Positions 12,011 to 35,292 of a stretch of 64,000 nt of DNA are shown piece after piece; positions within the stretch are counted from its first letter, which is position 1, and the number at the start of each line of letters is the position of its first letter. The position numbers and the translations under genes are program-made. The stretch covers positions 124,001 to 188,000 of the forward strand of contig NZ_RJUF01000173.1 in NCBI RefSeq assembly GCF_024343775.1. Reading direction: 5' to 3'. The stretch comes from Lacihabitans soyangensis (GTDB taxonomy: Bacteria; Bacteroidota; Bacteroidia; Cytophagales; Spirosomataceae). The notes beneath the pieces are model-generated. The model had not been told where the DNA came from. It was given only the letters and a program-made list of their open reading frames with translations, and made no database searches.

Positions 12011-13653
12011 TCTTCTACCTTACTCAATCTTTTCTCCAATTGAATGATATACAAACTCATTTCTTCAATTTTCTCTAGAAGTTTTGAGGTCATTTCTGTA
12101 TTATCAACTCCATTTTGAACAACTTCTTTTGCAGAAGGAATATTTGGCAAATGTTTATTCTTATTTACGAATTCATCCAGCTCTTTTATGCTCAGAAACT
12201 TATATCCTTTTTCGAAAACCTTGTCTGACCATTGAGCTTCGTTATCGTATTTCATTTTAAAATTAGAAACCCAAAATTCACCAGATTCACCAATTCCCAT
12301 AAAATCGCGGTCGTTGATTTTCATACTTGGTGAATTGTAGGCCACTCGCATATTCACAACTCCTTTTACATCAAGCGGATACTGCGGATTATGCATGCCT
12401 ATACCTACTTTAACGGCGTTGGCACCTACTCCTCCGAGCGTTAAAGCATTCGAAACCGTTACTTGTGCCTGGTAGCCAATAGCAGTGGAATTGGTCAAAT
12501 TATTAACAACGGTAGTTGGTGCTGCATGGTTTGTCCCTGTCCAAGTACCTGATTGAGTTCCTACAAAGGTGCAATTTGAGTTAGTTGTGGAAGCTGAATG
12601 ACCATTGGCATAGCCCCCAATCGAAATTGTAGATACTCCTGTGGTATTAAATTGGCCAGCTGCATAGCCCATAGATACGTTGAAATCTCCGACATTATTT
12701 ACGCCCGTATAATTACCGATCAATACATTGTAGTTGGAATTTTTGGCTGTAGTACCAACACCATCATAACCAGAACTTACCCCAATCATGATGTTTTGAT
12801 TACCTGTGCGATTATTTGCACCTGCCGCTTGACCTAAAAAGACATTACTTGCCCCTAAAGTATTATAAACCCCTGCACTTGCCCCAGCAAAGGTATTACA
12901 ACAACTAGCCGTTGAATAGAATCCTGCATTTGACCCAAAAAAAGCATTTTCTGAACCTGCGGCGGTAGCACCCGTTGAATAGCCGGCATTAAACCCAAAA
13001 AAAGTATTTGCAACCCCAAGTGCTGTTGTGGCATTTCCCGAGCCAGTTCCTCCCATTGTATTGTTTGAATTAACAGTTCTGAAACTTGGATCACCACCAC
13101 CTGAACCAGCAACATCAGGCACCAAAATGATATCGCCATTAGCATTTACACTTAGTGCTTTGCCATTGGTGGCTGTAGTAGTAGACGCCGAGGTTAGGTT
13201 TGCCAAACGAACACCATTATTGCCAATAGTAAGAGGTGTGCCTGGTGAGGTAGTAATGGGGTTTGGTAAAGCACCTAAAGAAGGAACCAATATTAAATTT
13301 CCAGAGGCGTCTACGCTCAAGGCCTTGCTGTTTGAAGCGGAAGTTGCCGAAGATGAATTTAGATTGGCTAGCTGAACTCCATTATTGCCAATGGTTAGTG
13401 GGGTTCCAGGGGATGTAGTAATTGGGTTTGGTAAAGCACCAAGGGCAGGCACTAGAATCACATTACCGCTTGCGTCTACGCTCAATGCCTTGCTATTGCT
13501 TGCTGATGTAGCTGAAGCAGAAGTAAAATTTGCTAGCTTCACCCCATTATTGCCAATAGTTAGCGGTGTTCCTGTTGGCGTAGTTATGGAGTTTTGAGCA
13601 AATACAGTATTAGACATTAAACTAATAATCAGTATTTTAAATAAATTTTTCAT
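12001..13653 (-). CDS. Secreted fibre-like repeat protein
   Basis: The protein has 550 residues with a signal peptide ending VFAQ. The N-terminal part holds three near-identical copies of a roughly 55-residue unit (TGTPLTIGNNGVKLANF, then SNSKALSVDASGNVILVP). The middle part has short NVFLGxxAG / NTFFGxNAG repeats resembling trimeric adhesin or tail-fibre stalks. The C-terminus (about 480-550) is a helical region, KELDEFVNKNKHLPNIPSA followed by LLEKIEEMSLYIIQLEKRL, shared with the protein at 35293-36642 and common in secreted Bacteroidota fibre proteins. It is likely a surface filament or adhesin. It follows the 13681-16872 gene by 27 bases and is probably co-transcribed. Confidence 0.8.
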   Translation of the reverse strand: MKNLFKILIISLMSNTVFAQNSITTPTGTPLTIGNNGVKLANFTSASATSASNSKALSVDASGNVILVPALGALPNPITTSPGTPLTIGNNGVQLANLNSSSATSASNSKALSVDASGNLILVPSLGALPNPITTSPGTPLTIGNNGVRLANLTSASTTTATNGKALSVNANGDIILVPDVAGSGGGDPSFRTVNSNNTMGGTGSGNATTALGVANTFFGFNAGYSTGATAAGSENAFFGSNAGFYSTASCCNTFAGASAGVYNTLGASNVFLGQAAGANNRTGNQNIMIGVSSGYDGVGTTAKNSNYNVLIGNYTGVNNVGDFNVSMGYAAGQFNTTGVSTISIGGYANGHSASTTNSNCTFVGTQSGTWTGTNHAAPTTVVNNLTNSTAIGYQAQVTVSNALTLGGVGANAVKVGIGMHNPQYPLDVKGVVNMRVAYNSPSMKINDRDFMGIGESGEFWVSNFKMKYDNEAQWSDKVFEKGYKFLSIKELDEFVNKNKHLPNIPSAKEVVQNGVDNTEMTSKLLEKIEEMSLYIIQLEKRLSKVEEVR

Positions 13654-13680: not shown

Positions 13681-16600
13681 CTATTGATTTTTAATTTCTA
13701 AGGTTCCACCATTGAGATTAATTGTGCCTCCATTCATCTGCACGGTTTTTATATTATTGCCAGTGTTTGATATTGAAACGGTATGTGTGGAATTAATCTT
13801 GGCTATTTTTTTTGAAGTAGGAACTACTGGATTACTCGGAGTTATCCATGTGCTACCGACATTCCACAAGCCTGTGTTTATAGATTCAAAAATGGGCAAG
13901 AAACTGTTGTTGGCATTTGCACTTGCTAATGTAAAGAGACCAAAACTACTTATAGCCGCAGCCGAAACTATTTCGCCCGAAAGGTTCGTTCCTGTGGTAC
14001 CGCCATTGCCTTTGTTTATCCAAGTATCTACTTCATAAGCAACTATCCTTAGATCAGCTGGAGAATCTACAATTCCACTTCTGGCAGTTTCCCAACCGAG
14101 GGAAACCAAAACGTTGCTTGTACCCACAGCTCTAACCAAAAGCCAAGTTTCATTGGTTGAAATATGATCAATACTTATTTCTTTTTGTATTGAATTTCCT
14201 ACAGGTTGGTCAAAATAAAGTACCCTAAACTCATCGCTAACGTTAGATGGAGCCGAAATACCGATTTTGGCCAATTTACCACCTCCACCCACTGGGAAGC
14301 TAAATGCATCATCACCTCGCTTTATTACCTGGCCTACCACATAGCTAGCATCTGATGCTCCTGTATAACCGATATTATCCGGAAAAATCAGCTCTTTGGT
14401 CATAGATGCTACTATATATCCACTAGTAAAAGCAATGGTCGTACCTACCGTCAATGGACTGTTGAGAGTGAGCTTGCCTGCACCAATTTTTTCTAATTTA
14501 ATGTTTGAAATGACTATGGCTTGAGTTCCCAACTGTTCCAATATTCCGTCAGCAGCCGACATAAATTTTGCACGGTTTATGGTTATTCCTCCTGTACTAT
14601 TAAAGGTGATACCCTTACCGTACTCATTTTCTGAATTTGTGGCCACGTTGATATTTCCACCAATTTTGTGGTAGGTCACATTACCAAAATATTTATTGCC
14701 AACATTTGTACCTATGGCATCATTCATTTCATTTGAACCCGTGTTAGTAAAAATGACATCCCCTCCAATTTCATTGTTGGCAATACCTGTATTATAGCCT
14801 CCTCCGTAAGAGGCATCACTGGTTAAAAATAAATCTCCTGAAATTTTATTGTTGTAAAATTGGGCGTAACCATTGCCTCCATAATTCAGAACTGAAAGAG
14901 AATTGACCAGAAGTGTATCATTAAAGACATCAAAGGCCTGGGTATTAGAGATAGAGACGGTACCTCCAGCTGTTTGATTAACAAAACGATACAAACCAAA
15001 CTGAGACAGTGCCACATTGGCGATGGTAATGTTTACCGTACCCGCGATTGCAGTTCTGTGGTTTGTCTGACCAAGTGACGAAAGACCTGATGTTGAATTA
15101 TTAAAAGAGAAAGTCCCCGCAATGTTTGCTCCTTTTCCAAAAATAAAGCTAGAACCAGCAGCAGTTCTTGAAATACTGACATTTCCTCCATAAGTCGATC
15201 TTTCTTGATTTCCAATATTTAGAGGTCCCGATCCATTAGCGGTGTAACTTACATTTCCTCCAAAAGTATTCTGTCCGTTGGTTTCATTGGACTCAAAGAA
15301 GGCATTTGATCCATAAATGGTAAAGTTTGAATTTCCACCTATTTCGTTTCGCAAAATTCTAGTATCAAAGCCTCCAGTATAACTCGAATGGTCAGTGATT
15401 GTCAAATCTCCAGAGATTTTGTTATTACTTAAACTAGCATAATTTGCTCCTCTATAGCCAGTTAAAGAGAATGATGTAACCAATAAAGTGTCGTTTGAAA
15501 CTGAAAACCCTAGGGTATTTTGAACAGAAATACTTCCACCTGGTGTGAGGTTTACGAAACGACTAAGGCTAAAAAACGAGGTTGCGGTGTTGTTGATATT
15601 GATATTTACCGTACCACTTATTGATGTTTTGCTACCCGACTGTCCTAATGTAGCACTACCTGAGGTCGTATTGGTGTAACTGAAATTTCCAGCAATTGAC
15701 GAACCTTTTCCAAAAATCACTGTAAGTCCAGCCCCCGATCGGCTGATATTGACATTTCCGCCATAAGTGGATTTTTCTTGATTTCCGATATTTAAGGTGG
15801 CAATACCAGTGGCCGAATAGCTAACATTACCTCCAAAGGTGTTTTGAGAGTTGGTTTCGTTTGCCTCCAAAAAACTGTTCGTACCGTTAATGACAAATGT
15901 AGCGGTGCCACCTATGTCGTTACGTGAAACTTTGGTGTTATAACCACCAGTATAAGTCAAATCATCGATCAAGGTTAGATTGCCCGAAATTTTGTTATTA
16001 CTAAATACCGCATAATTAGCTCCACGGTAGCCAGTTAGTGAAAAAGAACTAACCAACAGAGTATCGCTGGATACCGTAAAACCCAGTGTATTCTGAACTG
16101 AAATCACCCCACCAGGAGTCTGATTAATGATGCGGTTGAGCGGGTAAGCCGAGGTATTTAAATTATTAACAGTAATATCTATTTTACCGCCAATGGCAGT
16201 TCTATTCGCCGAATTTCCGATTGATAGTGAACCCGAAGTAAGGTTGGTATATGAAAAATTCCCAGTGACTAATCCTCCAGCGTTAAAAATGTTTGTGTTG
16301 CCAGCCACAGTTCGGTTAAAGGTCAAATTCCCGTTGTTCTCGGATTTTAGATTTTGAGCATATTGAAAGTCCATACTACCGTTGATATTGTAAGTTGTAT
16401 GGCCAGTATAAATATTTTTGGTTCCACTTGTTCCTTCAAAAAAGGAATTGCTGTTTGATAAATCAAAGGTTATATTGTCTGTGACGGTGTTGCTATTGAA
16501 AGTGGTATTATAACCACCCGTGCCTGTATTTATTTCTAAAACTATATCGGTGCCAGCCAGCGTATTGTTAAGTATTGCCCCAGAAATATTATTGTAAACA

Positions 16601-16872
16601 CCAATATTAGTAGTAATACTTAGTTTTTTTCCATTGAAATCTATGCTACTACCAGGCACCATAGTTATTCCGTTTATCGTGACATCAGTCTGCAAAACCG
16701 GATAGTTTGATAAAGCAGCAGGGATGGTTACGTTGCTGCCCGTGGTAGGAACAACATTAGGATTCCAATTGCCAGACACGTCCCAAGAAGTACTTAGAGC
16801 ACCGGTCCAAGTTTGGGCGAAAGTGCTTAATTGAATAGTGAAAAGTAATAGACAGTAAATGTATTTCTTCAT
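13681..16872 (-). CDS. Large secreted beta-repeat protein with conserved C-terminal module
   Basis: The protein has 1063 residues with a signal peptide ending STFAQ. Residues about 20-85 are a G8-like or autotransporter-like segment (GNWNPNVVPTTGSNVTIP). The core has three imperfect copies of a roughly 190-residue unit marked by PGGSISVQNTLGFSV, NDTLLVTSFSLTGYRGANY and NNKISGDL. The last roughly 65 residues (GLWNVGSTWITPSNPVVPTS to NLNGGTLEIKNQ) are shared with the next two upstream proteins. The fold is probably a long beta-solenoid. The function is unknown; surface display is inferred from the signal peptide and repeats. A candidate operator and -7 box lie upstream at 16910-16988, so it probably has its own promoter despite following the ELWxxDGT gene. 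Confidence 0.85.
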   Translation of the reverse strand: MKKYIYCLLLFTIQLSTFAQTWTGALSTSWDVSGNWNPNVVPTTGSNVTIPAALSNYPVLQTDVTINGITMVPGSSIDFNGKKLSITTNIGVYNNISGAILNNTLAGTDIVLEINTGTGGYNTTFNSNTVTDNITFDLSNSNSFFEGTSGTKNIYTGHTTYNINGSMDFQYAQNLKSENNGNLTFNRTVAGNTNIFNAGGLVTGNFSYTNLTSGSLSIGNSANRTAIGGKIDITVNNLNTSAYPLNRIINQTPGGVISVQNTLGFTVSSDTLLVSSFSLTGYRGANYAVFSNNKISGNLTLIDDLTYTGGYNTKVSRNDIGGTATFVINGTNSFLEANETNSQNTFGGNVSYSATGIATLNIGNQEKSTYGGNVNISRSGAGLTVIFGKGSSIAGNFSYTNTTSGSATLGQSGSKTSISGTVNININNTATSFFSLSRFVNLTPGGSISVQNTLGFSVSNDTLLVTSFSLTGYRGANYASLSNNKISGDLTITDHSSYTGGFDTRILRNEIGGNSNFTIYGSNAFFESNETNGQNTFGGNVSYTANGSGPLNIGNQERSTYGGNVSISRTAAGSSFIFGKGANIAGTFSFNNSTSGLSSLGQTNHRTAIAGTVNITIANVALSQFGLYRFVNQTAGGTVSISNTQAFDVFNDTLLVNSLSVLNYGGNGYAQFYNNKISGDLFLTSDASYGGGYNTGIANNEIGGDVIFTNTGSNEMNDAIGTNVGNKYFGNVTYHKIGGNINVATNSENEYGKGITFNSTGGITINRAKFMSAADGILEQLGTQAIVISNIKLEKIGAGKLTLNSPLTVGTTIAFTSGYIVASMTKELIFPDNIGYTGASDASYVVGQVIKRGDDAFSFPVGGGGKLAKIGISAPSNVSDEFRVLYFDQPVGNSIQKEISIDHISTNETWLLVRAVGTSNVLVSLGWETARSGIVDSPADLRIVAYEVDTWINKGNGGTTGTNLSGEIVSAAAISSFGLFTLASANANNSFLPIFESINTGLWNVGSTWITPSNPVVPTSKKIAKINSTHTVSISNTGNNIKTVQMNGGTINLNGGTLEIKNQ

Positions 16873-16909: not shown

Positions 16910-16917
16910 TAAAATTA
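16910..16917 (-). promoter_or_regulatory. Candidate -7 box for the 13681-16872 gene
   Basis: On the minus strand this reads TAATTTTA, one mismatch from the Bacteroidota -7 consensus TAnnTTTG. It lies 38 bases upstream of the start codon. The nearest edge of the candidate operator is 34 bases further upstream, the same distance as at the LytTR gene promoter. Confidence 0.4.
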
Positions 16918-16950
16918 TTTACTTGTAATTTCTACGGCAATGGAAAAATC

Positions 16951-16988
16951 CCTGTAAATTTCCCTAATCCACTACAGGTTTACCTGTA
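16951..16988. promoter_or_regulatory. Candidate operator: palindrome plus outlying half-site (copy A)
   Basis: The palindrome ACAGGTTTACCTGT (16975 to 16987, within CTACAGG...CCTGTATTTT) is preceded by a third half-site CCCTGTA at about 16950-16956. The same arrangement occurs at 23108-23146 in front of the solitary LytTR gene, with spacing differing by one base. It sits directly after the stop of the ELWxxDGT gene and 79 bases before the start at 16872. It is a candidate binding site for the LytTR protein encoded at 22720-23049. Confidence 0.55.
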
Positions 16989-16991: not shown

Positions 16992-19793
16992 TCATTGATT
17001 CTTAATTTCTAAAGTGCCACCATTTAGATCAATAACGCCACCATTCATTTGGATGCTTTTTACTTCATTGCTCGTGTTGGATATAGTTACAGTATGACTT
17101 GCGTTTATTTTAGTGGTTTTGGTTGCTGTTGGCAAGAGTGTATTAGAAGGCGAAATCCAAGTGCTGCCGACATTCCAGTTTCCAGTGGTGATGGATTCTA
17201 AGATATTCGTATTTGGGTCAAAACGCCATAACTCGTAGCCATTTGAAGCAGAAAAAGCAATGAAATAGATGTAATTATTGAATGAAGTGATGGACAGAGG
17301 ATGCGAACTCCCAACACCTACATTAATATCATGAAGCATGGCTGTGCCAGTAGCTGTGCCATCGCTTACCCAAAGTTCTGTTCCATGTGTGCCATCATCG
17401 GCAGTGAAGTAGAGTTTACCATTGATATTCGTAAAGTTTTGGGGCATCGAACTACCATAAAGATTTATGTTTTTTACTAAAACCGTTCCAGCAATTGTAC
17501 CATCACTTTTCCAAAGTTCATAACCATTTACTCCATCGTTGAAGGTAAAAAAGAGCGTATTATTTACGTTTATTAAACCCAAATAATAAGTTACGTTTAT
17601 TTTCGTATCTAAGGCTTTTATGAGCGTGGTATTAGCAGCCGTTCCATCGGTTTTCCAAAGTCCATAATTTGTGCCGTCATTAGCAAGAAAATAAAGATTG
17701 TTGTTCAAGGCTACCAAATTTTGCGGGCTTGCATTGGCTGTGCCTACATTGATGTCTTTCACCATTGAAGTGCCTGCTGATGTACCGTCCGATTTCCAAA
17801 GTTCAATACCATTAGTAGCTGAAAAAGTTTTTTGGGCAAAAAAAATGAGGTTATTGGCAACAGCTAACTCAGGACTAATGCCTGAGGAAGAAGATGGAGT
17901 AGAAATTGATGTAACTGGTACCGTGCCAGCAACAGTTCCGTCAGTTCTGATAAGATTACCCGTTTGATTTTTGAAATACAGTGTAGAATTGTATACAATA
18001 TAATCTGCTGGTGTGTAGTTTATTAGCTTAAAAGTACCTGCCGATGTACCGTCGGTTCGCCATACCTCGTTTGATGCTGAGACACTTGTAGCTCTAAAAT
18101 AAAGTAAACCATTGAAAGTATAAAAGGTTGAGGGAGATGAACTACTTAGATTAGGAAAAATATCCATAAACCTATTCGTTCCAGCCGCTGTTCCATCTGT
18201 TTGCCACAATTCATAACCACTTGTCGCATCATTTGCACTGAAATATAGTTTATTGTTTAAACTTCCAAATTCTGTTCTGTTAAAGATAGCATCAATAGCT
18301 ACATTACTAACTTTTTGCGTATTTACGTTAGTTCCATCTGTTTTCCACAAGGCTGTCGAATTACTATCATCAATCGGAATTACAACGAGATTTGTGCTGT
18401 CGAGTTGAGCTATATTCGGAATAATATAACTGTAATTAAACGAACTCGGAACATTAGGTGCAAGTGCTTTCAGCAAAGTTGTATTTGTCAAAGTACCATC
18501 GGACCTCCAGAGGTGCATACCCGTCGTGCCGTCATTGGCAAAGAACAATACGTTCCCATTGGCTACGCCTAACAGATATTGGGTGTAAAGATTAAATGAA
18601 GACGTAGTTCCCGTATAAATATCTTTAACAAGATAAGTACCCATCGCAGTGCCATCAGTTCGCCATAATTCTACACCATTAGTAGCTGTAAGAGCTGTAA
18701 AATAAAAAACAGAATTGGCTGGTGGAATAACAAAACCATCAAGATTTGGAAAACTACTTACAGAACCGCTATTAATATCTTTCACCAAAACTGTTCCTGT
18801 AGTAGTGCCATCGCTTTTCCACAGTTCTGAGCCTGTTGTACCATCATCAGCTGCAAAATAGAGTGTATTATTCACATTTTTAAGTGTTGATACACTTCCA
18901 CCTGTGTTTTTTACTAAGGCCGGGGCGGTACTTCCATCTGTTTTATAGAGTTCCGCACCAAGGCAATAATACAATATGCCATTGCTCGTCTCAATATCGT
19001 CAATATTGGCACTGGCCGTAGCCAATAGGCTTGTACCAGCTACTGAACCGTTGCTTTTCCATAATTGACTTCCGATGTTAAAGAATAAATTTCCGTTGAA
19101 ATTTGTAGGATTAGTAAAAACATTACTATAACTGGCAGTTATACTGGCCAATGAAATTGTTCCGACCGAAGTTCCATCGCTTTTCCAGAGAATAAAAGGC
19201 TGATTAGCCACAGTTCTATCAATTGTGGTAAAATACAGCGTATTGTTTATTTCAATGAAGTTATAAACACTACTCACTCCAAAGGTTTTGATGACTGATG
19301 TACCCGCCACCGTGCCATCTGATTTCAGTACCCGACTTTGCCCGTTTACAAAATCAGCATAGTAAAGGTTATTTGAGCCAACAGTGCCTTCAATCGCAAA
19401 ACGATTTATATCTGTATGCAACTCAACTGTGCCAGCCGTTGTACCATCAGAGACAAACAAATGCCAATTTATCTTGAAAAATACTTTTGTAGCAGTAGCT
19501 CCCAAAAATTGAATAGTTCTATCTTGAATATTCGGAAAACTCTTTATTTCCTGTGTACCTGCTGCAGTACCATCTGATTTGTATAGAGAATAATAGCAAG
19601 TTGAGCAGTTTTTAGCAAAAAAATACACAAATCCTCCTATGGTAGCAGTGCCTTGTGCGTAATTACTACCACCAAATTCAATGCTATTGGGCGGAGTGGT
19701 AGCAGAGGTGGTTCTGAACTTTTTGACCAAATCAGGAACTTGGGCATTAACCAAGTGGCTCAAAATAATTATTACGTACATTATCTTTTTCAT
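16992..19793 (-). CDS. ELWxxDGT-repeat secreted protein with conserved C-terminal module
   Basis: The protein has 933 residues with a signal peptide ending LVNAQ. From about residue 60 to 860 it is a run of ELWKSDGT / ELWRTDGT repeats with the follow-on GTxLVKDI, the ELWxxDGT repeat family, which probably folds as beta-propellers. The last roughly 65 residues (ITTGNWNVGSTWISPSNT to DLNGGTLEIKNQ) repeat the C-terminal module of its two neighbours. The start codon overlaps the stop of the SBBP gene by four bases (ATGA), so translation is coupled. It is likely secreted or surface-attached; the ligand or partner is unknown. No standard type IX secretion C-terminal domain is seen. Confidence 0.9.
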   Translation of the reverse strand: MKKIMYVIIILSHLVNAQVPDLVKKFRTTSATTPPNSIEFGGSNYAQGTATIGGFVYFFAKNCSTCYYSLYKSDGTAAGTQEIKSFPNIQDRTIQFLGATATKVFFKINWHLFVSDGTTAGTVELHTDINRFAIEGTVGSNNLYYADFVNGQSRVLKSDGTVAGTSVIKTFGVSSVYNFIEINNTLYFTTIDRTVANQPFILWKSDGTSVGTISLASITASYSNVFTNPTNFNGNLFFNIGSQLWKSNGSVAGTSLLATASANIDDIETSNGILYYCLGAELYKTDGSTAPALVKNTGGSVSTLKNVNNTLYFAADDGTTGSELWKSDGTTTGTVLVKDINSGSVSSFPNLDGFVIPPANSVFYFTALTATNGVELWRTDGTAMGTYLVKDIYTGTTSSFNLYTQYLLGVANGNVLFFANDGTTGMHLWRSDGTLTNTTLLKALAPNVPSSFNYSYIIPNIAQLDSTNLVVIPIDDSNSTALWKTDGTNVNTQKVSNVAIDAIFNRTEFGSLNNKLYFSANDATSGYELWQTDGTAAGTNRFMDIFPNLSSSSPSTFYTFNGLLYFRATSVSASNEVWRTDGTSAGTFKLINYTPADYIVYNSTLYFKNQTGNLIRTDGTVAGTVPVTSISTPSSSSGISPELAVANNLIFFAQKTFSATNGIELWKSDGTSAGTSMVKDINVGTANASPQNLVALNNNLYFLANDGTNYGLWKTDGTAANTTLIKALDTKINVTYYLGLINVNNTLFFTFNDGVNGYELWKSDGTIAGTVLVKNINLYGSSMPQNFTNINGKLYFTADDGTHGTELWVSDGTATGTAMLHDINVGVGSSHPLSITSFNNYIYFIAFSASNGYELWRFDPNTNILESITTGNWNVGSTWISPSNTLLPTATKTTKINASHTVTISNTSNEVKSIQMNGGVIDLNGGTLEIKNQ

Positions 19794-22717
19794 TGATTCT
19801 TAATTTCTAAAGTGCCACCATTTAGATTAATGACGCCACCATTCATTTGGATGGTTTTTACTTCATTGCCAGTGTTAGGTATGCTTACTGTATGGACGTT
19901 TACTTTGGCCGTTTTAGTTGCAGTTGGTATGGTGTTGGAGTTCCAAGTGCCAGTAGCATTCCAATTACCAGAAGTTATGGTTTCGATAAGATTATTATTT
20001 TGACTGAGACTCAAAATAAAAACATCACTTGAACCTATGGATGTATAATTATTACCCAAGAAATTGGTGTTTTTTTCAAAAGAACCTGTAGTATAAATAT
20101 TTGCCGAAGCATCGGTTGAAATGCCATAAGAGTAGGTATTATTTCCAACTCCTCCAATTTGTTTTACTGAAGAAAACATGCCCGCATTGTCGTATTTGGC
20201 AATATAAACATCATTCAAACCTACGAGGTTGATGAGCGTGCCATCGAAATTGGTCGTGCCTAAAAACTCACCTGTAATGTATACGTTGCCTGTGGCATCA
20301 ATGGTATTGCTACGCCCACTGGTAAATTTCCCTGCCGAACCTGCCTGTTTTACCCACTGAGTGTTTCCCAAGTCGTCAAATTTGGCTATAAACATATCAG
20401 CAGTACCTATGGAGGATAAAGTTGTACCTCCAAAGTTGACCGTTCCGCCGAAATCTCCTGAAACATAACTATTGCCAGAACCATCAATGCAAATATCTGA
20501 ACCCACAACCTCTTGGGCTGCTACGCCTACTTGTTTTACCCATACCAAAGTGCCTGAAGTATTGTACTTTGCCACAAATAAATCAATTGTTCCCAAGGCG
20601 GTTAAAATTGTTCCACTGAAATTTGTAGCTCCTTTAAATCCACCTGTGACATAAGCATTTCCCGAAGCATCTACTGCTACACTACTGCCAAAATCTATCT
20701 TTGTTGGACTTCCTGCTTGCCTTACCCATTGAAGTGTTCCTGCCGAATTATATTTTGCTAAATACATATCAACCGTGCCTATAGAAGTGAGATTTGTTCC
20801 TCCAAAATTTACAGTTCCATTAAATGTACCTGTCAGAAATATATTACCCGAACCATCCACATTTAATCCTAAACCTCCAGCATAAGGGCTTGAGGTTGCT
20901 GGACTTATTTGTTTTGCCCATTGCAAAACTCCTGTATTATCAAACTTGACAAGAAAAACTTCAAGGGCTGTTGTAACAGCAGTTAATGTTGTTCCGCCAA
21001 AACTTAATGTGCCTGCATAAACACCTGTTATATAAGCATTTCCGGCAGCATCAGTTGAAATATCATATACATAATGATAAGAACCACCAGTAGTTTGAAT
21101 TGCCCATTGCAGATTTCCTGTAACATTGTACTTGGCAACAAAAATATCATCATTGCCAGTACTTGATGGCGAGAGAGTTATTCCGCCAAAATCTGTAATT
21201 CCTGCAAATTCACCTGTTACGAGGGTATTTCCTGCCGCATCTGCTACAATGGATTTACCCCTAGCATTTTTAAAATTGGCACCACCCCAATGCTTTACAT
21301 ATTGTAATACGTCAGCAGCATTATATTTTGTTAAATAGGCATCTTGGTTGCCAAAAGCAGTTTTGCTAGTACCACTAAAATTGACTGTTGTTTGAAAAGC
21401 ACCAGTTATATAAGTATTTCCCGAACCATCAATGGCTATACCATTGGCTTGGTTGGATTTTGCTGTCGAGCCGAATTGTTTTGCGGAAACAGTATTTCCT
21501 AAATTGTCGTATTTGGCAATAAAACTATCTTTTATGCCGATAGAAGTAAGTGCTATTCCACCAAAACTTGTTGTGCCTTGGAAAGTGCCTATGGCAAATA
21601 CATTATTGCCCGCGGCATCTATTTCAATGGCGTTACCTCTGCATTCATTACTACCCGTGGCAGTCATTTGTTTTGCCCATATAAACAAACCAGAGCCATC
21701 ATACTTTGCTAAAAAGCCATCAAAATCACTATTACAGGTGAGAATTGTTCCACTAAAACTGGTGGTTCCTCTAAAAAAACCTATGGCATAGATATTATCC
21801 AAAACATCTACTTTTATGTCAGTTCCTACTACATCAGTAGCATAAGGTGCACCATTTACATGGCTGACCTCACGTTCCCAGATAAATGTACCACCATTAC
21901 TATATTTGGCAATAAAAAACTTACCATCACTGTTGTTATATTCTCCAATATCAATTCCACCAATTACCAGTTCTACGACACCCGTTAATAAGCCAGTAAT
22001 AATTACATTGCCAGAATTATCTAATGTAATTGCATTACCCCGAATAGCATAAATAGACGAAGAATTACTGACAGAATGGGCGTGCCGCACCCAAGATAAA
22101 TTTCCTGTGCTGCTGTATTTAGCAACAAAAAAATCAAAGGAAAAAACGCAAGGCAACGTTGTACCGCCAAAATCAGTATTCCCGACAAAACTACCTGTTA
22201 TGTAAACATTGCCTGTGGCATCTGCTACTATACCATGTACAAAATTATTATGATAAACTCCTGAATTTGAGGCATCATTAGAGATAGATTTTACCCACTG
22301 CACCACGCCTGCTGAATTGTACTTGGCAAGATAAACTGCAGTGGTTAGATTGGTAGCCGTAACACTTACTCCACTAAAATTGGCTGTACCTGTGTAGGAT
22401 CCTGTAATGTTTATTGCACCGGTACCGTCAACATCAAAATCGTCTATGTAGGCAGGTACAGTTACAACAAGAGCCACCGTTCCGTTGGTGTCAAACTTAA
22501 AAATATAAAACCCAGAGGAATAACTAATGCCTTGTACGACTGTTGATTGCCCAAATTGCAATGCCACAAAGGTATTTCCTGCGGCGTCTACTTTGGTTCG
22601 TAGTCCTGTGTTATCATAGGCTCCATTGGTATAACCTCCAACCTGTTTTAGCCATTGGAGGTCTTGAGCAAATAGTGTTTTTGAAAGTAATATTAAAAAG
22701 CAAACTACCTTCTTCAT
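19790..22717 (-). CDS. SBBP-repeat beta-propeller secreted protein with conserved C-terminal module
   Basis: The protein has 975 residues with a signal peptide ending LFAQ. From about residue 20 to 890 it carries some fifteen or more SBBP-type repeats of the form GNxYITGxFxGTxxFGG, followed by DxFIAKYDxxGxxxWxKQ. The final roughly 62 residues (ITSGNWNATGTWNSNTIPT to NLNGGTLEIKNQ) are the C-terminal module shared with the two downstream proteins. The gene begins two bases after the stop of the solitary LytTR gene and overlaps the next gene by four bases, forming a tight operon: LytTR regulator, SBBP protein, ELWxxDGT protein. A surface or extracellular location is inferred. Confidence 0.9.
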   Translation of the reverse strand: MKKVVCFLILLSKTLFAQDLQWLKQVGGYTNGAYDNTGLRTKVDAAGNTFVALQFGQSTVVQGISYSSGFYIFKFDTNGTVALVVTVPAYIDDFDVDGTGAINITGSYTGTANFSGVSVTATNLTTAVYLAKYNSAGVVQWVKSISNDASNSGVYHNNFVHGIVADATGNVYITGSFVGNTDFGGTTLPCVFSFDFFVAKYSSTGNLSWVRHAHSVSNSSSIYAIRGNAITLDNSGNVIITGLLTGVVELVIGGIDIGEYNNSDGKFFIAKYSNGGTFIWEREVSHVNGAPYATDVVGTDIKVDVLDNIYAIGFFRGTTSFSGTILTCNSDFDGFLAKYDGSGLFIWAKQMTATGSNECRGNAIEIDAAGNNVFAIGTFQGTTSFGGIALTSIGIKDSFIAKYDNLGNTVSAKQFGSTAKSNQANGIAIDGSGNTYITGAFQTTVNFSGTSKTAFGNQDAYLTKYNAADVLQYVKHWGGANFKNARGKSIVADAAGNTLVTGEFAGITDFGGITLSPSSTGNDDIFVAKYNVTGNLQWAIQTTGGSYHYVYDISTDAAGNAYITGVYAGTLSFGGTTLTAVTTALEVFLVKFDNTGVLQWAKQISPATSSPYAGGLGLNVDGSGNIFLTGTFNGTVNFGGTNLTSIGTVDMYLAKYNSAGTLQWVRQAGSPTKIDFGSSVAVDASGNAYVTGGFKGATNFSGTILTALGTIDLFVAKYNTSGTLVWVKQVGVAAQEVVGSDICIDGSGNSYVSGDFGGTVNFGGTTLSSIGTADMFIAKFDDLGNTQWVKQAGSAGKFTSGRSNTIDATGNVYITGEFLGTTNFDGTLINLVGLNDVYIAKYDNAGMFSSVKQIGGVGNNTYSYGISTDASANIYTTGSFEKNTNFLGNNYTSIGSSDVFILSLSQNNNLIETITSGNWNATGTWNSNTIPTATKTAKVNVHTVSIPNTGNEVKTIQMNGGVINLNGGTLEIKNQ

Positions 22718-22719: not shown

Positions 22720-23049
22720 TTATACCTTATAATTCATTTCACCCATATTTTTCAACAACAGCTCTCTTCGCCTTCTTGAAACCAAGACTTTTCTATTGTT
22801 CTTAAGTGTAACCTCATTGCTTTCCAAGCTTTGCACAAAATTTAGGTTTACCATAAAGCCCTTGTGCGTTCTATAGATAAATCGGAATGGCGAGAAGCTT
22901 TTCTCCAGTTTTTTTAGAGTGGTGGCCACCATAACATACTGACCGTTACTCAAATGCAACCTGGTGTAGTTAATTTCGGCTTCAAACAAAATGACATCGC
23001 TCGGCACCACTTTCTTTCTTCCTCCTATGGGTATTTCTGGTATTCTCAT
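22720..23049 (-). CDS. Solitary LytTR-domain DNA-binding regulator
   Basis: The protein has 109 residues from the ATG at 23049; a TTG at 23097 would add 16 residues, but the ATG gives the better fit to the candidate -7 box at 23067-23074. It is essentially one LytTR domain: VILFEAEINYTRLHL, TLKKLEKSF, FIYRTHKGFMVNLNFV and KVLVSRRRRELL. There is no receiver domain, so its activity must be set by amount, by a partner or by an unseen signal. It leads the operon of large secreted proteins and is divergent from the histidine kinase at 23212. A palindrome in its own promoter recurs before the 13681-16872 gene, suggesting it controls both transcripts. Confidence 0.9.
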   Translation of the reverse strand: MRIPEIPIGGRKKVVPSDVILFEAEINYTRLHLSNGQYVMVATTLKKLEKSFSPFRFIYRTHKGFMVNLNFVQSLESNEVTLKNNRKVLVSRRRRELLLKNMGEMNYKV

Positions 23050-23066
23050 GGGAACTATAATTTTTA

Positions 23067-23074
23067 CAAATTTC
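23067..23074 (-). promoter_or_regulatory. Candidate -7 box for the solitary LytTR operon
   Basis: The minus strand reads GAAATTTG here, one mismatch from TAnnTTTG, 17 bases before the ATG at 23049. The operator edge at 23108 lies 34 bases upstream, the same spacing as at the second copy near 16.9 kb. Confidence 0.4.
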
Positions 23075-23107
23075 AAATTCTCCAATCTTCGAAACAATCG
23101 GGACTTC

Positions 23108-23146
23108 CCTGTATTTTTTTGTACTCGCTCTACAGGTAAACCTGTA
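23108..23146. promoter_or_regulatory. Candidate operator: palindrome plus outlying half-site (copy B)
   Basis: CCTGTA (23108-23113) is followed 16-17 bases later by the palindrome TACAGGTAAACCTGTA (23131-23146). The layout repeats that at 16951-16988. The site sits between the divergent LytTR gene and histidine kinase gene and could act on both. Confidence 0.55.
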
Positions 23147-23211
23147 TTTTATCCAAAAACTTTGCATTCGAATTGTTTTTGGCTTATTTCAAATGATTTT
23201 TAAAAAAAATA

Positions 23212-25182
23212 ATGCGGAAACTGCTTTTTGTTCTGTTTGTATTAATATCGTCAGCGGCCTTCGCTGCCCGACCTGTGATGGATAGCTTGGCCAATCAGGT
23301 GAAAATATGGACAAAAAGACCTGCATCCATTCACCGAGATACGATGTTGGTCACTGCCTGGTCGAAATACACCTACTATTCGATTTACTTCCACGAAAAA
23401 AACACCCCACAAAGACTTGATTCTTTAGAAAGTCTCACAAAAAAAATAAAGTGGAAGGTTGGAGAAGGGTTGCTTTTAATCAACAAATCGTTTCATGCCT
23501 CTTATTTTCAAAACGATTTTTCAAGAGGCTTGGAACTAGGTCTAAAAGCAAAAGATATTTTGGACAAAACCAAAAACTACGAAGCTATAGCCACAGTAAA
23601 AGTGAGAATAGCCTCCATAATGTTATGGAATATCCAAAATATTGCGATAAGTAAAAATGAGTTTTTGAACCGAGGAATGAAAATTTCGGAAGAAATATAT
23701 GCCCTTGGCCAAAATATAAATAATCATGAAATAAAATGTTTAGGGCTCATTTATCGAGCCAATTTTTTGAATACATCTGGAAAATACAACCTTGCTCTGA
23801 ATGATCTAAAAAAAGCTGAACAGATCATACAAGAAAACCGTGTTGAATATCTCACAAAAAATCTTGTTTTCGGCATGTTATCAACTACTTACAATGTATT
23901 GCTGGACAGAAAAAATGCTAACCATTACTCAGAAATAACACTTAACTTAGCTGAAAAACAGCAAGACTATTACAGTTTATTATCGATTTACAGGTTTAAA
24001 GCTGAGCATGAAGCTCTCAGACTAAACTTTACCAAGAGCCAGGAATATCTCGAAAAATCCTATGAATACTCCAAAAAATTTGGGGTCACCAAGTTCATTT
24101 CAATGGCAGAAGGCCTATTATATGGTTTTTATAAATTCAAAAATAATAAAGAGAAAGCACTAGAGTTTTTAGAAAAATATAAAGCACATGAGGATTCACT
24201 TGCTATCGAGAAAACCCAAAAAATATATGCTGATTATGATCTGGCTACGAAACAATCTCGAATCCACCAATTAGAAAATCAAAGATTAATAGATGAGAAG
24301 CAATCGCAAGAAAGAGAAATATCCTATCTGAAAATATTTAAGGCAAAAGAAGATTCTATTTTTGCTCAAAAAAATGAAAAGATTCAGTCTGATTACAACT
24401 TAGCCATCAAAGAGTCTAAAATAAAAGCACTTGAAAATGAGAACCTCATGACACAAGCCAATAAAAATCAGCTCATTCGGAACATTCTCATTTTAAGTTT
24501 AGCCGCCGGACTGGGATTTGCTCTTTATTTTTTCAGGAACAACAAAAAACTTCGAGCCAAAAACCGTGAAATAAAGGCTGCACTTTTAGAAGGACAAACC
24601 CTTGAACGAAAGCGTGTTGCACAAGAACTACACGATAACCTCTCAGCAAAAATTTCGGGAATACGTTGGAGATTGGAATCCATCCAACCAAGTTTTGAAA
24701 CCGAAAAACAAGGCCAAATTTACAACTCAACCATAAATGCACTGGCAGAGGTTTATACAGATGTAAGGCTCATTTCCCATAACTTATTGCCAGAGGAGCT
24801 CGAAACCAAAGGGCTAAAAACGGCCATAGAAAAGTTGGTAGATGAGTTAAACTCACTCGGAAAAACGCACTTTATATATAATGCATCAGAAACTTTGGGC
24901 CGATTTGAAAGTAAAATAGAATACGAAATCTTCAGTATTCTGCTCGAGGTTTCAAATAATATCCTCAAACATTCTCAAGCCACTGAGGCTCTGGTTTCTC
25001 TCGAAAAGATTCATAATAATTTGGTTGTAAAAATCACTGATAATGGAGTTGGATTACCCGAAAACTCCGAGAAAAAAGGTATGGGTATGCCTAATTTGAG
25101 ATCCAGAGTGGCGTCTTTAAAGGGGAAAATCGAATTCATTAACAAGGCAGGTCTCAGTGTTGAAATGGCAATACCAGTTTAA
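23212..25182 (+). CDS. TPR-containing sensor histidine kinase (HisKA_3 type)
   Basis: The protein has 656 residues with a signal peptide (FAARP). The periplasmic part (about 30-400) is alpha-helical and TPR-like, with a coiled stretch at about 330-410. One membrane segment lies at about 421-440 (LILSLAAGLGFALYFF). The cytoplasmic HisKA_3 dimer domain has VAQELHDNLSAKISGIRW, with His474 as the predicted phosphorylation site. The ATPase domain has NNILKHSQA, ITDNGVGLP and GMGMPNLRSRV. It faces the NarL-type regulator at 25190-25837 with a 7-base gap, the obvious partner. It is divergent from the solitary LytTR operon and shares its upstream region. Confidence 0.93.
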   Translation: MRKLLFVLFVLISSAAFAARPVMDSLANQVKIWTKRPASIHRDTMLVTAWSKYTYYSIYFHEKNTPQRLDSLESLTKKIKWKVGEGLLLINKSFHASYFQNDFSRGLELGLKAKDILDKTKNYEAIATVKVRIASIMLWNIQNIAISKNEFLNRGMKISEEIYALGQNINNHEIKCLGLIYRANFLNTSGKYNLALNDLKKAEQIIQENRVEYLTKNLVFGMLSTTYNVLLDRKNANHYSEITLNLAEKQQDYYSLLSIYRFKAEHEALRLNFTKSQEYLEKSYEYSKKFGVTKFISMAEGLLYGFYKFKNNKEKALEFLEKYKAHEDSLAIEKTQKIYADYDLATKQSRIHQLENQRLIDEKQSQEREISYLKIFKAKEDSIFAQKNEKIQSDYNLAIKESKIKALENENLMTQANKNQLIRNILILSLAAGLGFALYFFRNNKKLRAKNREIKAALLEGQTLERKRVAQELHDNLSAKISGIRWRLESIQPSFETEKQGQIYNSTINALAEVYTDVRLISHNLLPEELETKGLKTAIEKLVDELNSLGKTHFIYNASETLGRFESKIEYEIFSILLEVSNNILKHSQATEALVSLEKIHNNLVVKITDNGVGLPENSEKKGMGMPNLRSRVASLKGKIEFINKAGLSVEMAIPV

Positions 25183-25189: not shown

Positions 25190-25837
25190 TTAAATCAACC
25201 CATTTTTTATTGCGAATTTTACCAATCCCACCACATTTTTGATTCCCAATTTCTTCAAGATATTGTGTCGGTGAGTTTCTACGGTTGCAGGACTTAAAAA
25301 CAACTTTTCTGCTATGACATTGGTGGAATGTTCCTCCGCTATAAGTTTGATAATCTCTATTTCTCTTCCCGATAGATTAGCGAGGTCATCCTTTATAGTA
25401 TTACCCACCAGGTCAGACATTTTCTTATCCCGATTCAACAATTCAAATACCACTGATTCGCTATAATATTTCTGTCCTGAGGCAATAACTTTTAAGGCTT
25501 TTTCAAACTCTTCTTTACCTGCCTTTTTCATTACATATCCCGCTACACCTGCTTGAAAAGCCTCCTGAATAGTTTGAAAATCCTCTGAAACCGTTAACAA
25601 CAAAACTTTAACTTGAGGATATTTCTGACGAATTTGATAGGTAAGTTCAATGCCATTCATTTCAGGCATATTGTAGTCAGTCATCACAAGGTCAATTTCA
25701 GTATATAACTCCAAGGACCTCAACAAGTCTTTGGCGTTATTGTGCGTGGCAACTACCTCAAAATCAGGAATTGTGGACAATAATATCTCAATACTTTCTA
25801 GAATAAATTGATGGTCGTCGGCTATCAGAATTCTCAT
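25190..25837 (-). CDS. NarL/FixJ-type response regulator
   Basis: The protein has 215 residues. The receiver domain (1-120) has acidic residues ADD at 6-8, the phospho-acceptor Asp54 in VMTDYNMPEMNG, and Lys in VMKKAGKEEF. The C-terminal LuxR-type helix-turn-helix (about 150-213) has LSGREIEIIKLIAEEHSTN, then LFLSPATVETHRHNILKKLG. It converges on the histidine kinase gene 23212-25182, whose HisKA_3 type normally pairs with NarL-type regulators. Its targets are not known; the adjacent secreted-protein genes are the natural candidates. Confidence 0.95.
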   Translation of the reverse strand: MRILIADDHQFILESIEILLSTIPDFEVVATHNNAKDLLRSLELYTEIDLVMTDYNMPEMNGIELTYQIRQKYPQVKVLLLTVSEDFQTIQEAFQAGVAGYVMKKAGKEEFEKALKVIASGQKYYSESVVFELLNRDKKMSDLVGNTIKDDLANLSGREIEIIKLIAEEHSTNVIAEKLFLSPATVETHRHNILKKLGIKNVVGLVKFAIKNGLI

Positions 25838-31299: not shown

Positions 31300-32394
31300 A
31301 TGAAAAAAATCACGTTCCTCTTACTCCTAATTTCTTTAGAGGCTGTCTCTCAAAACATCTTTCGTTGTAATAACGACCCCAGTGTACCTGTTTCTGCCAC
31401 TCTAAAACGAACTTTACAGGAGGCACATGACATTGCCTCTGACGGCGACATTATTTATGTAGAGCCTTCATTTGGAGGTACTACTTACGGCAGCCTAAAC
31501 ATGACCAAAACACTTACGATCATTGGTAATGGCTACGATCACAGCATAAATCCGGGCTCCTCACAAAACTGGGATACCCGAGCCTCCGTGGTTGGGGCAG
31601 TCAACATCAACGGTACGACAGGTGGAGGTAGCGTTTTCATGGGATTGACTTTTAACGGAGCCACCATAAGCGTAAAAGTGCCCAATGTAACCATAAGACG
31701 TTGTAAGAGTTTCAATATTTATTTTTACCGAGAGGCAGGAAAAAATGCAAGCGGGGCAAATGTATTAGAAAATCACATTGCCAACGTATATGCTTATGGT
31801 TATTCAGACTATGCATTAAACTGCTATACTGCTTATCCGATAGAAAATATCACCATCAAAAACAATATTAATCTCTGGTTTACATCAAACACTTTGTCGT
31901 CAGGATGTTCAAGTTCAATTCTTACTATTCCTTCTTGCTCGAATATTGTCATTTCCAATAATGTGTACTACGTTGGTGCCAACATCAACTATTGCATGAA
32001 CTGCACCATCACCAATAACATTTTCAGAACTGTTCCTGTGGCGGGCATAATCGGAGTTTTGGGGACGGGTTCGGTCATAGGCAACAACGTGTGCGGAACC
32101 AACCCATGTGTTCAAGGAAGCAATAATGTCAATTCGGCAATCGATAATCAAATTTTTGTCGCATCAAATCCTTTTAGCAACGACAAAGATTTTGCCCTAA
32201 AAGCAGCCTCTCCTGCCATTGGAGCAGGCATTGGAGGTGTAGATGCTGGTGTATTTAGTACCAGCACACCTTATGTTTTATCCGGCTTGGCTCCTATTCC
32301 TCAGATCACTTCCTACAGTTTCAACAGCTCAGCTGGGGTTTACACCACGAGTACGCCGATGACCATCACTCTTAGCATCAAAGGAAACAACTGA
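31300..32394 (+). CDS. Secreted right-handed beta-helix protein
   Basis: The protein has 364 residues with a signal peptide (LEAVSQ). Residues about 30-300 look like a parallel beta-helix: IASDGDIIYVEPSFGG, then repeated short strands with Asn or Ser ladders (NITIKNNINLWF, NIVISNNVYYVG, NCTITNNIF, GSVIGNNV). Such folds often bind or cleave polysaccharides, but no lyase catalytic set was recognised. The C-terminal tail (about 310-364) ends without a known sorting signal. It begins a plus-strand run of secreted proteins with only 5 bases to the next gene, so they are very likely one operon. Confidence 0.85.
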   Translation: MKKITFLLLLISLEAVSQNIFRCNNDPSVPVSATLKRTLQEAHDIASDGDIIYVEPSFGGTTYGSLNMTKTLTIIGNGYDHSINPGSSQNWDTRASVVGAVNINGTTGGGSVFMGLTFNGATISVKVPNVTIRRCKSFNIYFYREAGKNASGANVLENHIANVYAYGYSDYALNCYTAYPIENITIKNNINLWFTSNTLSSGCSSSILTIPSCSNIVISNNVYYVGANINYCMNCTITNNIFRTVPVAGIIGVLGTGSVIGNNVCGTNPCVQGSNNVNSAIDNQIFVASNPFSNDKDFALKAASPAIGAGIGGVDAGVFSTSTPYVLSGLAPIPQITSYSFNSSAGVYTTSTPMTITLSIKGNN

Positions 32395-32399
32395 ACCAA

Positions 32400-33683
32400 A
32401 TGAAAACCTCAAAAATTCTCCTTTGGGTAAGTATTCTAACCCATGGAATTGGGCTTTATGCTCAAGACATTACGAATTTGGAATACTACATTGATAACGA
32501 CCCAGGTTACGGATTAGGCACCGAAGTGGTGGTCTCTGCTGCAAATACGATTAGTAATTTGCAAGTAAATGTCAGCCTCAGCAATTCTTTGGTCGACGGA
32601 TTCCATAGATTTCACATTAGGGCCAAAGACGAAAACAATAGATGGAGCTTGGTGGCCCATCACCCTTTTTTAAAGATAACTCTTGATAACCCGCCTAATC
32701 CTATCCCGAACATACAAAGGCTAGAATACTACATTGATAACGATCCTGGGTATGGATTAGCTACGGAAATCCCAATTTCCGCCGGCTCACCTATCAATGG
32801 TATAAGTCTTAATGTCAACATCGAAAATTCTCTTGGTGATGGTTTTCATCGTATACATGTAAGGGCAAAAGACATTAATGGCCGATGGAGTGTGGTAGCC
32901 CATCACCCTTTTATGAAAATGACCATAAACAATCCACCAAATCCGATACCTGCAGTGGTAAAAGCAGAATACTACATTGATAATGATCCAGGTTATGGTT
33001 TGGCTCTTAATATTCCACTTACCCCAGGAACTTCGGTTTCTAATCTTTCAGCGATGGTCGATTTAAGTGGCTTATCCTTAGGAACGCACCATATATGTAT
33101 TCGTTCTCAAGACTCAAACGGAAAATGGAGTGTAGTTGGCATCAAAAGTGTTAACGTTGAAAGCAATGCCATTCTAGTTTTGAACACACCAGTTAGTTTC
33201 TGTAAAAACGTAGCATTTATTGTTAGTTTTGGTGCTTACGGCACTTTCAACTCTGGAAATATTTTCACAGCTCAGCTTATGAGCGGAAATACGGTAGTTG
33301 CGACACTTGGAAGCCTCATGAGTATGACTTCTGGTACAATTTCGGCCATCATCCCCAATTCTGTACCCCTAGGAAACTACGAAATCAGAGTAATATCTGC
33401 CAATCCAACTCCTTCTAATTTTCCAAGAGTACCCATTCAGGTGGTTAATATATGTCCATCCCCTTGTCCCTCCAATTTGGTTTTGACAAGCACTTCGGAC
33501 GACTTTTCCTCGGGAAATACCACCAAACAAGCAAATGCCACAAACGGCATGATTACCGCTACCAATAAGATTACTGGGAGTGCCAATGTAAGCTACCAAG
33601 CCAAAAGCACGCTTCTTAATCCCGGCTTTTTGGCAAATTCGGGAGTAGTATTTAGAGTGGAAGTTGGAGGTTGTACTCAATAA
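32400..33683 (+). CDS. Secreted repeat protein with Cys-ending C-terminal stack domain
   Basis: The protein has 427 residues with a signal peptide (GLYAQ). Three copies of a roughly 80-residue unit follow, each opening EYYIDNDPGYGLxxE and closing on GRWSVVAHHPFMKM or a variant. Residues about 255-350 resemble an Ig-like domain. The C-terminus (about 355-427) starts CPSNLVLTSTSDDF and ends FRVEVGGCTQ. It matches the C-terminal form of the protein at 36651-38471 (CTTNLSVTATQ to NEGCAGSQ) and resembles what is called a 3-coathanger stack with a GC-ending sorting signal. Surface attachment is therefore inferred. It lies in the 31300-38471 operon. Confidence 0.85.
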   Translation: MKTSKILLWVSILTHGIGLYAQDITNLEYYIDNDPGYGLGTEVVVSAANTISNLQVNVSLSNSLVDGFHRFHIRAKDENNRWSLVAHHPFLKITLDNPPNPIPNIQRLEYYIDNDPGYGLATEIPISAGSPINGISLNVNIENSLGDGFHRIHVRAKDINGRWSVVAHHPFMKMTINNPPNPIPAVVKAEYYIDNDPGYGLALNIPLTPGTSVSNLSAMVDLSGLSLGTHHICIRSQDSNGKWSVVGIKSVNVESNAILVLNTPVSFCKNVAFIVSFGAYGTFNSGNIFTAQLMSGNTVVATLGSLMSMTSGTISAIIPNSVPLGNYEIRVISANPTPSNFPRVPIQVVNICPSPCPSNLVLTSTSDDFSSGNTTKQANATNGMITATNKITGSANVSYQAKSTLLNPGFLANSGVVFRVEVGGCTQ

Positions 33684-33737
33684 ATAAACTATCCTAAATT
33701 TAAAAATAGAAAAAACTCAATTAAAACCTCCAATAGT

Positions 33738-34949
33738 ATGAAAAACTTAAACATAATTTGGTTCTTTTCCTTGATTTCTATGATGTGCCTTGGCCAACAA
33801 AGAGCAGAAATAAGCCCAAACGGAATGGTATTCCCGCAGTTTAGCAATGCAAACCTACCAATTGATTTACCAGAAAATCCAATTGCCGTGGGTACAATGA
33901 TTTTCAACCTTAGCCTCGGCAGACATCAATTCTGGAATGGCACAAATTGGGTGGATTTGATACCAAGTTCTACTCAAAAATCTACATTTTATGTTGAAGG
34001 TCGTCAATTGAAAGATCCTTGTGGAAATACGGTAATTCTGAAAGGAGTAAATAAAATGAATGTATGGACCGATCAAGACGGTCTCTCCATTCCAGAAATT
34101 GCCCAAACGGGTGCAAACTGCCTGAGAATTGTATGGACAACTACCTTCAATGGCTCCCCTACCAATGATGTAAAACTTGACAGCTTGATTTCTAAATGCA
34201 TTCAAGCGAAGATGATTCCGATGGTGGAAATCCATGACGCAACCTGCAACTTGGGTGCTTTACAAGTGGCTCTCAACTACTGGAAACGGCCTCAAATTTT
34301 GGCCATAATAGAAAAATACAAGCATGCACTTTTACTAAACATAGCCAACGAACCTGGTGACTGGCAAGCCACCGCTCAACAGTTTGAGGTAGCCTATTTA
34401 GATGCCATTACCCAACTCCGTAGTGCTGGAATAACCGTTCCGCTTGTAATTGATGGTGTAGACTGTGGAAAAAACCTTGAGTTTATCGTGCAAAAAGCTC
34501 CCACTTTGATTAATCATGATCCACTCCATAACCTATTATTTTCTGTCCATACGTATTGGCCAAAGAACAATGGAGCTACACCAGCATTTATAACCGCACA
34601 GTTTGAAGCTGCCACCGCTGCCAATATACCTTTTATTGTTGGCGAACTTTCAAAATATGGAGCATGGGCAGGCAATGGTGTGAGTGTCTGCACCGCACCT
34701 GGTGAGGTAAATTACCAATGGATTGCCACAGAATGCCAGCGTTTGGGAATAGGTTGGTTGGCTTGGGAATGGGGTCCGGGAAACGCAGGCGGAGGAGATC
34801 CACTCTGCACCGCCATGGACATGACCACCAATAATACTTTTGCTTCACTCACAGGTTGGGGACTTGAATTGGCCAATAATGCCACCTACGGACTTATAAC
34901 AAGCCAGAAAACTTCTTACATACAAAACAAATTTACAAAATGTAATTAA
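33738..34949 (+). CDS. GH5-like secreted glycoside hydrolase
   Basis: The protein has 403 residues with a signal peptide (MMCLGQ). Residues about 22-75 are an N-terminal module (NGMVFPQFSNA, GTMIFNLSLGRHQFWNGTNW) that recurs in the proteins at 35293 and 47546. The catalytic TIM barrel (about 84-403) fits family GH5 cellulases or mannanases: DPCGNTVILKGVN, GANCLRIVW, Glu205 as acid/base in NIANEPGDW, and Glu303 as nucleophile in IVGELSKYG. It hydrolyses beta-glycans, probably outside the cell; the exact substrate cannot be read. It stands three bases before the second solitary LytTR gene within the secreted-protein operon. Confidence 0.88.
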   Translation: MKNLNIIWFFSLISMMCLGQQRAEISPNGMVFPQFSNANLPIDLPENPIAVGTMIFNLSLGRHQFWNGTNWVDLIPSSTQKSTFYVEGRQLKDPCGNTVILKGVNKMNVWTDQDGLSIPEIAQTGANCLRIVWTTTFNGSPTNDVKLDSLISKCIQAKMIPMVEIHDATCNLGALQVALNYWKRPQILAIIEKYKHALLLNIANEPGDWQATAQQFEVAYLDAITQLRSAGITVPLVIDGVDCGKNLEFIVQKAPTLINHDPLHNLLFSVHTYWPKNNGATPAFITAQFEAATAANIPFIVGELSKYGAWAGNGVSVCTAPGEVNYQWIATECQRLGIGWLAWEWGPGNAGGGDPLCTAMDMTTNNTFASLTGWGLELANNATYGLITSQKTSYIQNKFTKCN

Positions 34950-35279: not shown

Positions 35280-35292
35280 ATCAACTAAAATC

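Follow-up and report, generated by a model that had tools for sequence, protein, structure and literature searches.

The window analysed here, a stretch of 64,000 nucleotides from Lacihabitans soyangensis, contains two copies of a three-part DNA element, each upstream of an operon for giant secreted proteins. From sequence comparisons we consider it very probable that this element is a tandem operator of the NarL/VraR-type response regulator encoded at 25190-25837, which has the histidine kinase encoded at 23212-25182 as its partner and activates both surface operons through the element, and that the solitary LytTR gene at 22720-23049 is one of the targets. What the sequences show directly is the DNA pattern itself, how many copies of it there are, how well it is conserved, that it goes with the kinase and the regulator, and that it persists where LytTR is missing. 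What had been a vague shared motif thereby becomes a regulon open to testing, for which a probable regulator and sensor, an operator, a promoter layout and targets can be named.

The paired element, its promoters and the surface proteins

Both operons lie on the minus strand. The first begins with the LytTR gene (109 aa, no receiver domain), followed by the genes of an SBBP beta-propeller-repeat protein with a signal-peptide-like N terminus (975 aa, 19790-22717) and of an ELWxxDGT repeat protein (933 aa, 16992-19793). The second encodes the repeat protein REP (1063 aa, 13681-16872) and the fibre-like protein FIB (550 aa, 12001-13653). Upstream of each, the candidate operator site 1 is a perfect inverted repeat, TACAGGTnnACCTGTA, in which two heptamers flank a 2-bp centre (a 7-2-7 layout, TACAGGT-nn-ACCTGTA). 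Copy 1 (TACAGGTTTACCTGTA, 23131-23146, minus strand) is conserved in eight genomes and is common to the LytTR operon on the minus strand and the divergent kinase gene on the plus strand, and copy 2 (TACAGGTAAACCTGTA, 16973-16988, minus strand) follows the ELWxxDGT gene, with 3 bp between the stop codon and the palindrome. The outlying CCCTGTA (TACAGGG on the other strand) is found at 16950-16956 and 23107-23113. With it begins a second 16-bp site, degenerate but in the same 7-2-7 frame, which abuts the TTG at -33. In copy 1 the starts of this candidate site 2 (TACAGGGAAGTCCCGA, 23098-23113, minus strand) and of site 1 are 33 bp apart, and in copy 2 (TACAGGGATTTTTCCA, 16941-16956, minus strand) the distance is 32 bp. 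The preliminary description had placed the three parts at 16951-16988 and 23108-23146, exactly 34 bases from a -7 box. The element is indeed present at both places and its distance to the box is identical, but the starts had been set one base too high and CCCTGTA is 32 bases from the box. Neither the second site nor the sharing of the palindrome with the kinase gene had been noticed.

A search of the whole genome (5,649,495 bases) returned the exact palindrome only at these two places, 6.16 kb apart, while its reversed control did not occur at all. No copy with one mismatch was present in the whole genome, and the 16 copies with two mismatches were not more frequent than those of the reversed control. 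As further members of the regulon these 16 sites were rejected, being mostly intragenic and having a promoter behind none of them. Random scatter of the palindrome, which had been named beforehand as an outcome that would speak against a regulon, was not seen; both copies precede surface-protein operons.

The promoter of the LytTR-SBBP-ELWxxDGT operon (23067-23097, minus strand) consists of TTG at 23095-23097, 20 bp and GAAATTTG at 23067-23074, and that of the REP-FIB operon (16910-16940, minus strand) of TTG at 16938-16940, 20 bp and TAATTTTA at 16910-16917. These two were compared with the surface promoters of G008, G111, G050, G131, G114 and G108. On the surface strand, all eight promoters begin with site 1, from which 6-7 or 16-17 bp separate the 16-bp frame of site 2; TTG, exactly 20 bases and a -7 box follow, these last three taking the form TTG-N20-nAAnTTTG ([GC]AAnTTTG or TAATTTTA). 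In each of them this combination stands at a fixed distance from site 1, with a chance probability of 0.003-0.022 each. Site 2 is weak, as its frame matches site 1 at 8-11 of 14 positions, against a random mean of 3.7. The two spacer classes are one helical turn apart, with site starts separated by 22-23 or 32-33 bp, which corresponds to two or three turns of the helix. The promoter consensus of Bacteroidota is TTTG (-33) and TANNTTTG (-7), with transcription starting 4 nt past the -7 box (PMC6847099). The eight surface promoters match this sigma-ABfr type, only in part because the first T of their -7 box is mostly G or C. If their transcription also starts 4 nt past the box, the site centres would be at about -43.5 and -76.5, and site 1 of the short class at about -65.5.

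On the opposite strand, a -7-like box of the kinase gene (AAACTTTG, 23157-23164, plus strand) ends 18 bp past the palindrome of copy 1, and the same spacing is found in G008, G111, G131, G114 and G108. Judged by this spacing, and provided that the box functions as presumed, the palindrome would cover the -33 region of the kinase promoter. Two natural splits of the arrangement exist. Copy 2 of the window has neither the kinase nor the kinase-side box and retains site 2 and the surface promoter, and G115 has no surface operon, site 2 or surface promoter and retains the palindrome and the kinase-side box. These splits show that both directions from the palindrome matter.

The SBBP, ELWxxDGT and REP proteins end in one domain of 66-70 residues that closes with LNGGTLEIKNQ (residues 910-975, 864-933 and 994-1063; window positions 19793-19990, 16995-17204 and 13684-13893) and has the pattern ..GNWN..STW..TATKTAKIN..HTV.I.N.GN.VKTIQMNGG.INLNGGTLEIKNQ. 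In the whole genome only these three proteins carry it, apart from one marginal match (E = 0.009). In relatives the domain likewise forms the end of proteins encoded downstream of the orthologous operators, two in G008 (522 and 1593 aa), one of 1265 aa in G111 and one of 912 aa in G131. Pfam and NCBIfam held no match of note for the domain, and its predicted structure, with a mean pLDDT of 45.7, is uninformative. A match to MHC_I in REP lay below the cut-off and was taken as spurious, and a literature search on ELWxxDGT found no paper. Since the domain is clearly present in no protein of the genome other than the three giants that follow the two operators, the regulon is probably real. FIB does not have the domain; its orthologues occur in palindrome-controlled operons of Emticicia aquatilis and G131. 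The second operator copy of the window goes with a FIB operon that is set apart from the rest. Taken together, the shared domain and the FIB orthologues in operator operons support, in outline, a joint control of giant secreted proteins by one shared operator and two transcripts. To this extent the earlier proposal of four jointly controlled surface proteins holds, but not with the LytTR protein as their regulator. An undescribed C-terminal domain shared by operator-linked giants also makes a function in surface anchoring or sorting directly testable.

Conservation of the palindrome with the kinase and the regulator

The kinase gene (23212-25182, plus strand) encodes a sensor protein of 656 aa with HisKA_3 and HATPase_c domains (PF07730, 2.8e-07; PF02518, 2.7e-07). 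The adjoining gene (25190-25837, minus strand) encodes a NarL/FixJ-type regulator of 215 aa with receiver and GerE domains (PF00072, 2.1e-25; PF00196, 2.6e-16), which aligns over its full length with VraR and NarL and has the recognition helix SPATVETHRHNILKKLG. The pairing of the two genes is conserved across relatives. We searched 222 genomes of the family, among which G000 is the genome of the window and Lacihabitans sp. LS3-19 (G008) its nearest relative. The exact palindrome is present in 7 of the 222 genomes. Besides the window genome, it is found in the same gene neighbourhood in G008 and E. aquatilis (G111); the exact palindromes of G056, G176, G179 and G200 have unrelated surroundings, at a number close to the chance expectation in 222 genomes, and were set aside.

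Orthologues of the kinase (E<1e-70) occur in nine of the 222 genomes, eight of which have TACAGGnnnnCCTGTA ahead of the kinase start; the palindrome there deviates by one mismatch at most. It is in exactly these eight genomes that the regulator reaches an identity of at least 64% with that of the window. The ninth, G121, has no palindrome and no regulator gene in the 20 kb covered, and its best regulator homologues elsewhere reach 46-48%. In the MAG G131 the best regulator is on a different contig from the kinase. A single V-to-I change, in G131, is the only departure from this recognition helix among the eight genomes. The palindrome is identical in the two Lacihabitans genomes, between which protein identity falls from 84% for the regulator to 70% for the kinase and 45% for LytTR.

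The palindrome upstream of the kinase is kept in four genera despite changed neighbours. In G111, for instance, it lies between the kinase orthologue and a divergent operon encoding the 1265-aa protein and a FIB orthologue (phmmer 5.9e-232). In G111, G108 and G114 the divergent genes open with one for a surface protein, and in G131 with one for a protein of 399 aa, which ELWxxDGT and FIB follow; G115 has no divergent surface gene at its kinase palindrome.

The regulator is our preferred reader of the element because of this co-occurrence, the graded conservation of regulator, kinase and LytTR, and the 7-2-7 form of the site. As kinase and regulator are neighbours in most of the genomes, co-occurrence alone would also fit a different regulator that accompanies the kinase. 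We propose that the kinase would phosphorylate the regulator, whose dimers would bind site 1 and then, cooperatively, site 2, where the dimer would contact RNA polymerase. This would switch on both the LytTR-SBBP-ELWxxDGT and the REP-FIB transcripts, the sign of regulation being the most plausible one. Since at copy 1 the palindrome overlies the -33 region of the kinase's divergent promoter, the kinase gene is probably under the control of its own regulator too, which would most simply repress it. LytTR would then be a target, and possibly a second-tier relay, instead of the protein that reads the site.

The LytTR gene, paralogous modules and other readings

The 109-aa protein belongs to the LytTR family (PF04397, 1.5e-16), and the preliminary description had taken it for the binder of the element. 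The window genome encodes 49 LytTR domains, more than half of them in solitary receiver-less proteins of about 95-155 aa. A relay function of LytTR is plausible because LytTR genes cluster near NarL-type regulators and adjoin kinases in other modules. This leads to a layered control, in which the operator is read by the NarL-type regulator, and LytTR has further genes as its targets or feeds forward on the same surface genes through another site. We regard such a control as possible, if rather less likely than its absence, and it is compatible with our preferred explanation and not exclusive of it. In its favour, 9 of 28 solitary LytTR genes lie at most 4 kb from a listed NarL-type regulator, where 0.56 would be expected, and LytTR is the divergent gene beside the kinase in several other modules (L144, L145, L146, L157 and L192). 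Against it, no other conserved DNA element came to light that goes with LytTR, and LytTR is evolutionarily dispensable, as the modules of Emticicia and G131 lack it.

Direct binding of the element by the receiver-less LytTR protein, which would activate its own operon and the REP-FIB transcript, appears very unlikely. LytTR is the first gene behind copy 1, as it is in G008 and G050, solitary LytTR regulators are known to autoactivate (PMC6193735), and LytTR sites can be direct or inverse repeats (PMC4847170). Yet only these three of the eight site-bearing genomes have LytTR behind the palindrome. No LytTR gene is found there in the other five (G111, G131, G108, G114 and G115), which comprise E. 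aquatilis, E. agri, Emticicia sp. C21, BO119 and the Cytophagales MAG, and the palindrome tracks the kinase and the NarL-type regulator instead. LytTR sites consist of repeats of 9-11 nt with spacers of 11-13 nt (PMC4847170; PMC6193735). When scanned for 9-nt direct repeats with at most two mismatches and such a spacer, neither promoter of the window contained any, and the centre of the palindrome measures 2 bp. Moreover, LytTR proteins that are as similar to the one of the window (47%) as is the syntenic one of G008 (45%) are encoded in G008:C22 and G004 without the palindrome, and the 45% conservation of LytTR stands against a palindrome that is identical. None of the approximately 27 other solitary LytTR genes of the window genome has the palindrome; considered as carriers across genome and genus, such genes yielded none beyond the syntenic loci. 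A solitary LytTR gene adjoining a motif is therefore poor evidence of LytTR binding there. Another solitary LytTR gene (108 aa) is directly followed by a FIB paralogue (449 aa, 8.8e-20) at 34953-36642 of the window; this locus adjoins secreted-looking proteins at 31300-34949, a similar neighbourhood without the palindrome.

As an RNA element, a terminator or an inserted repeat, the palindrome is hardly credible. Copy 2, which begins only 3 bp after a stop codon, could fold into a 7-bp hairpin, but the gene strand has no T-run behind it. Copy 1 is flanked by divergent genes, the genome has two copies only, the helical spacing to the promoter is fixed in eight promoters, and the kinase-side palindrome outlasts its neighbours in four genera.

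Similar arrangements are found at paralogous kinase/regulator pairs. A 7-2-7 palindrome occurs in 21 of 54 kinase upstream regions, compared to 5.1 expected from shuffles. Where the helix differs, the pair has a palindrome or footprint of its own in the corresponding position, of the types TACCGG, TACTGT, TCACGG, TCACTG and TCCCC. The group with the helix APKTVETHRHN has the footprint CTAAGTgAAAACCcTTAG upstream of the kinase (L157:16241, L192:10824, L196:11225 and L197:10521), and the divergent genes begin with LytTR in two of the genomes, whereas the remaining two have an SBBP gene there. In a third module (L139, L145, L146 and L082) the kinase is divergent from LytTR and AAATACTGT...GTATTT is kept upstream; in the genome of the window, LytTR is followed there by two genes and then by a 730-aa SBBP protein. 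In Emticicia, three further places with TACAGGnnnnCCTGTA lie upstream of a second kinase/regulator pair (L210:6518, L211:9065 and L212:7353), which combines the same core with another helix, SVGTVENHRHN, and has an ELWxxDGT protein as divergent neighbour in L210. This shared core could lead to cross-talk between the two pairs. Most other TACAGGnnnnCCTGTA places in Emticicia are in or beside unrelated genes, look like chance or coding conservation, and were discarded.

Lys192 of NarL contacts DNA. When its equivalent was taken from the alignment of the regulators with NarL, the palindromes of pairs with Lys at this position began with TC (5/5), and those of close relatives with His or Arg began with TA or TG. 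This is suggestive only of a recognition rule in which this residue would set the start of the palindrome, because the examples that correlate helix and operator are few and related. With confidence a little short of even, we propose that Spirosomataceae carry paralogous, insulated NarL-type modules and that in every module a separate palindromic operator lies between the kinase gene and a divergent operon for giant secreted proteins. The operator would change with the helix, LytTR would have been inserted repeatedly as a second-tier relay, and the giants of a module would be marked by a private C-terminal domain. Such paralogous pairs with differing helices and operators are natural material on how GerE-domain regulators keep their sites apart, and NarL-type regulators and their sites are little mapped in the phylum Bacteroidota.

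Comparison with known systems

The LytTR systems HdrRM and BrsRM (PMC6193735) likewise have a solitary receiver-less LytTR protein encoded by the first gene of an operon. In Lacihabitans, however, the next gene encodes the 975-aa SBBP protein and not an adjoining membrane inhibitor, direct repeats spaced by 11-13 bp are missing, and the operator persists without LytTR. Among solved structures, the best match to the regulator is to VraR (7ve6/4gvp, 6.9e-26, full length), which points to the VraR/LiaR-type envelope-stress regulators. This similarity is at the level of the family only, and the kinase of 656 aa with its long N-terminal part is not of the short LiaS/VraS type.

The consensus of the E. 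coli NarL heptamer is TACYYMT. TACAGGT differs from it at the Y positions, so the element is not an E. coli NarL site as such and agrees with one in layout alone. The sigma factor and the promoter consensus also differ, and in Lacihabitans the site lies beside the gene of its own kinase, has surface-protein targets and occurs in a variant with 22-bp spacing. Nevertheless, the likeness to NarX-NarL at the E. coli ogt promoter is close. Both have a HisKA_3 kinase, a receiver-GerE regulator and inverted heptamers with a 2-bp centre and TAC...GTA outer ends. At ogt, the NarL 7-2-7 sites are at -44.5, abutting the -35 element, and at -77.5, 33 bp apart, and a placement at -67.5 also activates (PMC7419079). 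The long version in Lacihabitans, with one site abutting the -33 element and the second 33 bp upstream, agrees with this to about 1 bp, and the 33-bp tandem layout of ogt thus recurs here with a different sigma factor.
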